Source: Sarcocystis neurona
Lineage: Eukaryota > Apicomplexa > Conoidasida > Eucoccidiorida > Sarcocystidae
DNA length: 64,000 nt
Reading direction: 5' to 3'
Assembly: GCA_000727475.1 (NCBI GenBank)
Contig: KL647307.1
Location: 1,965,244 to 2,029,243 of the forward strand
The notes under the pieces were generated by a model. It had not been told where the DNA came from. It worked only from the letters and a program-made list of their open reading frames with translations, and ran no database searches. This document shows, in pieces, positions 43,770-63,096 of this stretch. The stretch's first letter is position 1; every line of letters starts with the position of its first letter. Position numbers and translations under genes: made by a program.

Positions 43770-44131
43770 CTGAGCGTGTTCGTCCAACGCGACGGAGTTC
43801 ATGCTGCCGGTGGGGTCTGCAAAAGTGAGGGAGAGAGCCCACCTGGCGACGTGCAGGACACACACATGGAAGGAAATCAGACACAGAGATTTTTTTGCTG
43901 GTGTGTTCGCCGAGACACTTTGACCTTTCTTCGATTCCACAGGAAATACCGTAGCGCAACTGCAAGTGCGGGAGCTGGGCACATCACCGCGCGGGAGTGT
44001 TTCATGCCTCTCCTGCAAACGCCTGCCAACGACCGCGCACGCCCGAGGCGAGCACTACCTCACGACGCCTGCTGCGACAGTCTCGACGACAAGCCAAGTA
44101 GCAGCAGTGGCACACCCAACCCCTTGTGCTC

Positions 44132-44172
<41 letters not shown>

Positions 44173-62100: not shown

Positions 62101-63096
62101 ACATGGATGGGTGTGTTTATATGTAGGGGTGTGAAGAGTCTCTCTGTGACTGCTGCGCGCCCCCCTACAAATATTTCCTTGTCACTGCAGCACTGCCGAT
62201 CATACAAATATCCACTAATGCACCCTCTCCCATGTATACGCGTATGGTCGAATCCAGTATATATATTCACACCGTAGGCAATGTATATATATATACAGAA
62301 AGATATATATGTCTATACATATATGTATATATATATATGTATATATATGTACACATGTAGGCGTAGACGTACATATAAATATAAACACATCTATATGAGT
62401 ATAATAGTTGTGGATTAGATGAACATATACGTATATACGTTGATGCAGTTCTGTACATACATATACATATATTCAGTGTGGAGCTATATATATATACACG
62501 CCTATACAGAGAGATATATATATTTATGTACTCACATATATATATAAACGTACACATGTGTACATATGTAAATATATACATAGAGAGATATATACGTCTA
62601 TACATATACATACATATACACACATATATATATATGCATGTATAGTCGATGTGTAATAGGAAAACATATATGCTAGGGCATTCATGGAGAAGGACAAAGA
62701 GAGAAGAAGTGCTGCTCTGACTTTTACAAGCTGAAGCAGAGAAGCACTGCAGCAGCAGAGAGCCATGATCAACACCGACGTACTTTGTTTCTGTCTCTTC
62801 CTCTTCGTCTTCTTCGCGTCACCAGCAGCAGCTGATGCAGCAGCAGGAGCGGCAGCAAGGACGGCAGCAGACGCTTCAGCAGCAGCAGCAGGGGACACAG
62901 CAACGGCAGCACCGGGAGACGCAGGGGCAGCAGCCGCGGTCGCAGAGAGAGGCGTGACGCCAGCAGCAGTGGGTGAGGAGCCGACTGGAGCAGGGGACGC
63001 AGGGGAAGGACGAGGAGGAGAGGCAGCAGCAGCAGCCTGGGGATGACGCGAAGACGAAGAAGTCGTCGTCGTCGGTTTTCTCTGCTGCCTCAGGCC
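43770..63096 (-). CDS. RPA1: replication protein A large subunit (RPA1/RPA70), both ends incomplete
   Basis: Twelve exons in transcript order: 62784-63096, 61041-61161, 60273-60345, 59348-59460, 57876-57977, 56305-56413, 55693-55819, 51571-51729, 49463-49587, 48465-48571, 45635-45769, 43770-43842; all phases agree (1,557 nt). Exon 1 is an Ala/Pro/Ser linker ending KKTKRKRQKQ. DBD-A: IRDINAYSQNWVIRGRV, GEGQLFSISVVD, EIRATFFG, VGRIYEFSGGTVSLAS, QFNTLPHQFEIKFGENT. DBD-B: EAGSIVDVVGIVSSFS, RRKELTLVDQSQSINLTLW, LLAIKGARVSEYAGLTSLSS. DBD-C: YFNCHVVIAAIE, zinc ribbon ACPDC...YRCLRC, then LSLTFADPTGSMNSVALDE. Known: RPA1 is the main ssDNA-binding subunit of the nuclear RPA heterotrimer in replication, repair and recombination. 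Odd: introns up to 4 kb filled with microsatellites. The exon 45635 donor (GTCGCT) is weak; a GTAGGA donor giving end 45599 is also in phase. Not found: an N-terminal protein-interaction OB fold, a start codon, the C-terminal helices. Confidence 0.88.
44138..44390. repeat. (TA)n and (CT)n microsatellites in RPA1 intron
   Basis: A TA run of about 28 bases is at 44138-44167. Short CTCTCT blocks alternate with ATATAT between 44255 and 44385. Non-coding. Confidence 0.85.
45185..45270. repeat. degenerate ACT/CTG trinucleotide repeat
   Basis: Imperfect ACTACTACTGCTACT-type trinucleotides, within the RPA1 intron between exons 12 and 11. Confidence 0.7.
46545..46850. repeat. ATATAC / CACATA microsatellite cluster
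   Basis: Alternating ATATATAC and ACACATAT words in a RPA1 intron. The Tyr/Ile/Cys-rich open frames here on both strands are products of the repeat. Confidence 0.8.
48780..49340. repeat. TATATACATA microsatellite cluster
   Basis: Repeating TATATATACATACG-type words fill the RPA1 intron between the exons at 48465-48571 and 49463-49587. Confidence 0.8.
49680..51090. repeat. TATA/CATA microsatellite block with a 20-bp tandem core
   Basis: Dense TATATACATA words cover most of this interval, with a short unique stretch at about 50390-50480. From about 50925 to 51085, a unit of roughly 20 bp (TATGTATAGATATATATATA) is repeated about eight times with small indels. Intronic in RPA1. Confidence 0.85.
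51257..51513. repeat. CAG-rich repeat adjoining RPA1 exon 8
   Basis: CAG/AGC-rich on the plus strand, so CTG-rich in the RPA1 transcript. It lies just downstream of the exon 8 donor (51570). The poly-Gln/Ser/Ala frames on the plus strand are not called, since the RPA1 exon next to it reads the other strand. Confidence 0.8.
51779..52125. repeat. TATA/CATA microsatellite
   Basis: Runs of TATATATACATACATA and ACATATATATATG, intronic in RPA1. Confidence 0.8.
52352..52520. repeat. GA-rich polypurine tract
   Basis: AGACACAGAGAGATAGGGAG-type words repeat with irregular spacing, purine-rich on the plus strand and CT-rich in the RPA1 transcript. Confidence 0.75.
53829..54512. repeat. about 680-bp polypurine GAGACAGAGAGAGGGA tract
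   Basis: Almost uninterrupted purines with regular C in GACAGAG words, intronic between RPA1 exons 7 and 8. All three plus frames and two minus frames stay open (Glu/Arg/Thr or Ser/Leu/Pro), which is what a short-period repeat without stops produces. The 291-codon frame is therefore not called as a gene. Confidence 0.92.
55889..56235. repeat. CAG-rich repeat between the two DBD-B exons of RPA1
   Basis: AGCAGCAGC-rich on the plus strand, CTG-rich in the transcript. It fills most of the 485-base intron between exons 55693-55819 and 56305-56413. Confidence 0.85.
56470..56740. repeat. AGCAGCAG-rich repeat
   Basis: AGC/GGA/AAG-rich on the plus strand in the RPA1 intron upstream of exon 6. The long Leu/Phe and Ser/Arg frames are repeat products. 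Confidence 0.8.
57210..57830. repeat. TATATACATA / CACATA microsatellite
   Basis: CA/TA-rich words with interspersed CATGCA. Intronic between RPA1 exons 6 and 5. Confidence 0.8.
58180..58810. repeat. ACATATACATAC repeat with a 164-bp duplication
   Basis: A block beginning CAGGTCCATATACACATACA is present at 58428 and again at 58592, with near-identical following sequence (CGTATACATCCACATATACA and beyond). The period is 164 bp within a wider CA/TA microsatellite. Intronic in RPA1. Confidence 0.85.
58905..59235. repeat. ACATATACAT microsatellite
   Basis: CA/TA hexanucleotide-type repeat ending just upstream (on the plus strand) of a pair of similar AAGCAGAGAAG words at 59268 and 59311. Confidence 0.8.
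59735..59913. repeat. GA-rich polypurine tract
   Basis: AGAGGGAGACGGAGACAG words repeated, in the RPA1 intron between exons 4 and 3. Same family of repeat as at 53.8-54.5 kb. Confidence 0.8.
60355..60840. repeat. CAG-rich repeat next to RPA1 exon 3
   Basis: CAG/CAA/AGC-rich on the plus strand. It begins within about ten bases of the exon 3 acceptor (TTGCAG, exon starts 60345). In the transcript it reads CTG/TTG and forms the tract just before the acceptor. Confidence 0.85.
61178..61680. repeat. CAG-rich repeat next to RPA1 exon 2
   Basis: AGCAGCAGTCATAGCAGC-type repeat, CTG-rich in the transcript, just upstream of the exon 2 acceptor (GTGCAG, exon starts 61161). An Ala/Thr/Phe-rich frame in the minus strand could extend exon 2 by about 50 codons if that acceptor is not used. 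Confidence 0.8.
61875..62660. repeat. (TA)n / TATACATA microsatellite block
   Basis: TA runs at 61881-61900 and 62074-62095, plus TATATACATA words, separated by a unique stretch at about 62110-62270. Intronic between RPA1 exons 1 and 2. Confidence 0.8.

Follow-up and report, generated by a model that had tools for sequence, protein, structure and literature searches.

In PMC12427563, Cryptosporidium parvum is described as having two large subunits (RPA1) of replication protein A (RPA), CpRPA1A (about 50 kDa) and CpRPA1B (about 70 kDa). Multiple RPAs are already in print for Toxoplasma gondii, Plasmodium falciparum and C. parvum, so several RPA1s in one apicomplexan are not new. The gene reported here lies on the minus strand of a 64,000-nucleotide stretch of Sarcocystis neurona DNA (contig KL647307.1; C20:1965244-2029243 in a genome of 123.0 Mb and 74 contigs). 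This stretch is referred to as the window, and positions without a contig name are positions in it. By sequence comparison the locus at 61161-40175 was confirmed as a real RPA1-type gene, with predicted exons set amid microsatellite-rich introns.

At least 13 predicted exons, running from 61161 to 40175, give when spliced a single open frame 474 residues long, and no stop or frameshift occurs across the 13. They amount to 1,427 nt over 20,987 bases (6.8% coding) and are separated by introns of 404-3,963 bases. The exons are listed below, preceded by a probable upstream exon; DBD-A, DBD-B and DBD-C are DNA-binding domains, and C1 denotes the contig carrying a paralogue.

62784..63096, minus strand: probable upstream exon; donor gtacgt, end phase 1, as the next exon needs
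61041..61161, minus strand: exon 1, start of DBD-A; covered from 61105 in the spliced alignment of the Cystoisospora suis protein
60273..60345, minus strand: exon 2, DBD-A; the preceding intron is common with the C1 paralogue (column and phase)
59348..59460, minus strand: exon 3, DBD-A; contains the residue aligned with human F238
57876..57977, minus strand: exon 4, end of DBD-A; contains the residue aligned with human F269
56305..56413, minus strand: exon 5, DBD-B
55693..55834, minus strand: exon 6, DBD-B; contains the residue aligned with human W361 and is also matched in the REPA_OB_2 genome search
51542..51729, minus strand: exon 7, end of DBD-B and linker; the C. suis alignment starts this exon at 51720
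48465..48571, minus strand: exon 8, start of DBD-C; the linker has the same length in the four species compared
45641..45769, minus strand: exon 9, zinc ribbon of DBD-C (CPDC...CLRC); 129 nt, phase 2 at both ends
43770..43842, minus strand: exon 10, DBD-C; the last exon in the interval first proposed for the gene
41843..41956, minus strand: exon 11, DBD-C; beyond that interval
40672..40734, minus strand: exon 12, DBD-C; AAG acceptor, gtaagt donor; the preceding intron is common with C1 (column and phase)
40175..40267, minus strand: exon 13, 30 C-terminal residues and a TGA stop

Exons 1-10 were first placed by eye, and exons 8-10 were later confirmed with the C. suis protein. A C-terminal search with the five RPA1s was not significant (22.5 and 21.2, nulls up to 24.0), and exons 11 and 12 were likewise placed by eye; exon 13 was found using the Neospora caninum protein as a guide and was confirmed by that of C. 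suis. The donor first chosen for exon 7 (51571) was dropped because it put the next junction out of phase, and 51542, which is in phase, was used. A candidate exon at 49587-49519 was also dropped: the linker has 37 residues in the window gene and in all three coccidian orthologues, which leaves no room for an exon between 51542 and 48571. Since exon 9 is in phase 2 at both ends, its skipping keeps the frame. The N. caninum-guided spliced alignment skips this zinc-ribbon exon. A 52-nt piece from the same alignment (59685-59634) was rejected because it copies extra residues of the guide protein, and its low-complexity pieces upstream of 61161 were also not used. Y[MN][DG]E.R[VIL], a motif formulated only once exon 12 was known, occurs once in the six frames of the window.

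The original prediction had placed an RPA1 gene of twelve minus-strand exons in 43770..63096, with no exon coordinates. An RPA1-type gene with RPA70 and Pfam matches was indeed found there, with ten exons (61161-43770) bounded by GT donors and AG acceptors. The splice phases had been said to match, and all nine junctions are in phase, with the frame open throughout. The start at 63096 fits the probable exon 63096-62784, which would be the eleventh; a twelfth could not be placed. DBD-A, DBD-B and DBD-C were predicted in the correct order, but the interval cuts DBD-C in half, with three 3' exons beyond 43770. The coding density, put at about 8%, was 6.0% of the interval and 7.6% with the probable exon, beside the 6.8% over 61161-40175.

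The longest open frames of this region had been called repeat artefacts, which is a fair description. In all, 106 open frames of at least 80 aa overlap 43000-64000, and the longest (362 aa; 57820-58908, minus strand) reads as runs of Tyr, Val, Cys and Ile derived from repeats. Tandem repeats make up 20.8% of 40175-61161, compared with 0.7% and 2.5% of two parts of the window to the left. None of the 13 exons is overlapped by an array located with Tandem Repeats Finder; of the intron bases, 22.3% lie in such arrays.

The splice model was compared with a spliced alignment of the C. suis protein (P0016), which played no part in the choice of exons, over 62500-39500. This alignment gave 13 exons and agreed with the model at 23 of 24 splice sites (12/12 donors, 11/12 acceptors); the sole mismatch is the acceptor of exon 7, at a point where four residues are missing from the C. 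suis model. It scored 959.6, compared with 82.4-140.9 for ten null runs, six of them on other strands or stretches and four with shuffled queries. Five of the 11 introns then in the model coincide in column and phase with introns of the C1 paralogue, whose exons were derived from a profile without the window gene, and two more are one or two columns off their C1 counterparts with equal phase. The rough chance of five exact matches, given ten C1 introns, is 1.2e-8.

The ten-exon draft (375 aa, with exon 7 ending at 51571 and the halves joined by hand) matched the OB family PF01336 (7.2e-7) and RPA70 chains in the PDB (4gnx_C, 1.4e-39; 1jmc_A, 7.5e-35), the matches beginning in DBD-A. The joined protein had been expected to match two RPA1 families in Pfam. 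REPA_OB_2 did so at once (1.5e-21), but Rep_fac-A_C (3.4e-6, 27.3 bits) stayed under its cut-off of 28.5 bits until the 3' exons were added: exons 11 and 12 lifted it to 40.0 bits, and the 13-exon product reached 44.5 bits (PF08646, DBD-C). This product also passed the cut-offs of 27 for REPA_OB_2 (PF16900, DBD-B; 75.6 bits) and PF01336 (the OB fold of DBD-A; 30.4 bits). OB_MEIOB_N (PF24903) scored 19.1 bits, below its cut-off of 27. DBD-A, DBD-B and a zinc-ribbon DBD-C stand in RPA1 order; by alignment, all four zinc cysteines of DBD-C are present and most positions that contact single-stranded DNA (ssDNA) are kept. What the sequence itself shows is the set of exons, their open frame, the order of the domains and the aligned DNA-stacking and zinc-binding residues. 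Whole-genome family searches were run exon by exon; with PF08646 the genes on C1 and C21 were found and the window gene was missed, and with PF01336 two other loci were found, but neither the window gene nor those on C1 and C21.

Scoring in the protein searches was limited to the 7,996-7,998 candidates sharing most words, so that the absence of an orthologue means little. A profile search led to the N. caninum protein "Replication protein A, 70 kDa DNA-binding subunit, related", and a search with the latter led to T. gondii TGME49_260570 and to C. suis "replication protein a 70 kda dna-binding, partial". Identity of the window gene to these three proteins is 41-50%. In a 14-row tree the window gene was sister to C. 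suis + (T. gondii, N. caninum), the four grouping together at 100/100. This position of the window gene, outside the group of C. suis, T. gondii and N. caninum, and 47 AP2-domain matches, 34 of them over the cut-off, agree with a Sarcocystis source. The C1 copy grouped with Babesia RPA1 (88/87), and the C21 gene formed a long branch. For a single clade of C1, the window clade and C21, p-AU was 0.029; this group was named after the tree had been seen, and it includes the long C21 branch. The window gene is likely the orthologue of TGME49_260570 within a divergent coccidian RPA1 clade, and the canonical RPA1 of the genome is likely the C1 gene, not the window copy. The two other RPA1 genes, whose models are aligner output with unrefined 5' and 3' ends, are as follows.

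C1:2275223-2280889, plus strand: canonical-type RPA1 gene (L006), 5.7 kb, 22% coding, without tandem arrays
C21:836970-821285, minus strand: third RPA1-like gene (L007-L009), 15.7 kb, on a long branch; in the alignment it has no residues opposite human R210 and W212

We consider that the window gene probably encodes a divergent coccidian paralogue acting as an alternative ssDNA-binding large subunit of RPA. DBD-A and DBD-B would grip ssDNA, and the zinc ribbon of DBD-C and the C-terminal helix would keep the subunit joined to RPA2 and RPA3 as a trimer. The product would work beside, not instead of, the canonical RPA1 from C1.

Several results weigh against this assignment. With the NCBIfam model rpa1 (TIGR00617), the window gene scored 232.8 bits (E 7.7e-69), below the cut-off of 334.2. 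Its coccidian orthologues also fell under the cut-off (198.9-262.3), and the equally 5'-truncated C1 copy passed it (361.1). The window gene was therefore called an RPA1-type paralogue, outside that NCBI subfamily, and the original identification as RPA1 is narrowed to this extent: the type was right, but the gene belongs to a divergent coccidian clade and the copy that passes the NCBI cut-off is on C1. The C21 gene scored 272.1, again below the cut-off. No match to the RPA2 family PF08784 was found in the genome at E <= 0.001, exon by exon (the control was positive in 4 archaea); no match to RPA3 (PF08661) was found in the same way, where the control was also silent and the search is uninformative. 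The structure model of the C. suis protein, which is not the window gene itself, was of moderate quality (pLDDT 67.8, pTM 0.39). The first profile, built without coccidian sequences from P0001 and the RPA70 proteins of Ustilago and human, gave cleanly only exons 1-7: with a cheap intron it yielded 26 exons including junk and missed exons 8 and 9, and with a dear intron and the C1 copy added it recovered only exons 1-7. The N-terminal domain of the orthologues was not found upstream of the gene.

The best surviving alternative, which we regard as unlikely, is an OB-fold protein that descends from RPA1 but has specialised, no longer works in the RPA trimer and serves, for example, at telomeres or in meiotic recombination (compare Teb1 or MEIOB). 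Against it, the protein retains DBD-A, DBD-B and DBD-C together with the zinc cysteines and most of the positions that contact ssDNA, and PF16900 and PF08646 exceed their cut-offs while the MEIOB match does not. The complete domain order would also suit an ordinary main RPA1, with the C1 copy as the extra one, but this is highly improbable, as C1 passes TIGR00617 and groups with Babesia RPA1 and the window gene does neither. That the locus is a pseudogene, or that repeat-derived frames have come together by chance, might be argued from the missing start codon and the repeat-rich surroundings, but is most improbable given 13 exons with neither stop nor frameshift, zero tandem-repeat overlap, the identity to three coccidian proteins and the far lower nulls.

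No start codon was found for the window gene. In the probable exon 63096-62784 only the 3' end is supported, where a Lys/Arg-rich segment resembles the Lys/Arg run before "RQKGG" in the linker of the orthologues; the remainder is low-complexity. Its open frame contains no Met, so at least one further exon must lie upstream. Directly past the window, C20:2029244-2039368 consists of 10,125 N, perhaps an assembly gap, and the 5' end of the gene may lie within it, together with whatever corresponds to the orthologues' N-terminal domain. A CAG-type array occupies 63871-64000, adjoining these N at the window edge. Searches for the N-terminal domain in the 32.6 kb upstream, much of it N, gave 78.1 (nulls up to 81.1) and, in a second search upstream, 47.1 (nulls up to 59.1). 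One short match at 79651 (joined coordinates) stood alone with no supporting neighbours, and an N-terminal protein search of the whole genome reached a best E of 1.11. The 70N family (PF04057) gave no match, with all controls silent too. The orthologues' N-terminal domain is weakly 70N-like by hhalign (11.9%, E 0.0025): none of 40 shuffles reached this E (lowest 0.014), the value for an unrelated region of these proteins was 0.69, and the positive control gave 98.3%.

The public models of the orthologues are broken at different points, in keeping with the original expectation that automated annotation would probably miss such a gene or break it up. That of T. gondii TGME49_260570 includes the zinc ribbon but breaks off two residues past the exon that encodes it, so that the part of DBD-C corresponding to the last four exons is missing. 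The N. caninum model has the rest of DBD-C but not the zinc-ribbon exon, and its DBD-A is longer by 16 residues. In the C. suis model, four residues are missing before EYGG in DBD-B. Rep_fac-A_C scores were 18.8 bits for T. gondii and 15.5 for N. caninum, both under the cut-off, and 53.4 for C. suis. Both parts of DBD-C are present in C. suis and in the window gene, so the gaps in the T. gondii and N. caninum models are likely annotation errors; a true isoform is the less likely alternative. TGME49_260570 is not mentioned in the main texts of the literature searched, supplements being outside the search.

It is conceivable, if doubtful, that coccidia keep three RPA1-type large subunits, with the window gene founding a separate RPA that has its own job on telomeric or meiotic ssDNA and escaped notice owing to the breaks in DBD-C of the T. 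gondii and N. caninum models. The finding would gain in importance if the three RPA1 copies form separate RPA complexes. Its interest lies in the corrected DBD-C of the orthologues and in a third RPA1 copy: the T. gondii "hypothetical protein" would become a paralogue of RPA1 whose complete DBD-C can be tested, a splice model now exists for a stretch resembling microsatellite junk, and even for a conserved gene of DNA metabolism different exons can be missing from different public models.

Elsewhere in the window, a 2,706-aa open frame at 29755-37875 (plus strand), without a Pfam match and Gln-rich towards its end, is convergent with the RPA1-type gene at a distance of 2.3 kb. Part of a Pumilio-family gene (PUF repeats, 5.5e-18) was found at 15112-16158 (plus strand), a 101-base unit in 3.9 tandem copies at 23096-23492, and 721 N flanked on either side by GT repeats at 11738-12458.

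Compared with known systems, the window gene stands closest to its coccidian orthologues. T. gondii TGME49_260570 (P0015, 534 aa) has DBD-A, DBD-B and the zinc ribbon as in the window gene, and in addition an N-terminal domain whose counterpart was not found here. The N. caninum protein (P0009, 621 aa) is 41% identical over the whole 427-aa query, including the region of exons 10-13. The C. suis protein (P0016, 660 aa; 49.7% identity) has, like the window gene, the whole of DBD-C with its zinc ribbon, but also carries the N-terminal domain. Canonical RPA70/RPA1 (human, Ustilago and the C1 gene) has the DBD-A/-B/-C order, the zinc cysteines and the ssDNA-stacking aromatics in common with the window gene, but identity is only about 27-30%, and the window clade sits on a long branch under the TIGR00617 cut-off. 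As an apicomplexan with more than one predicted RPA1, S. neurona would resemble C. parvum with its CpRPA1A and CpRPA1B.
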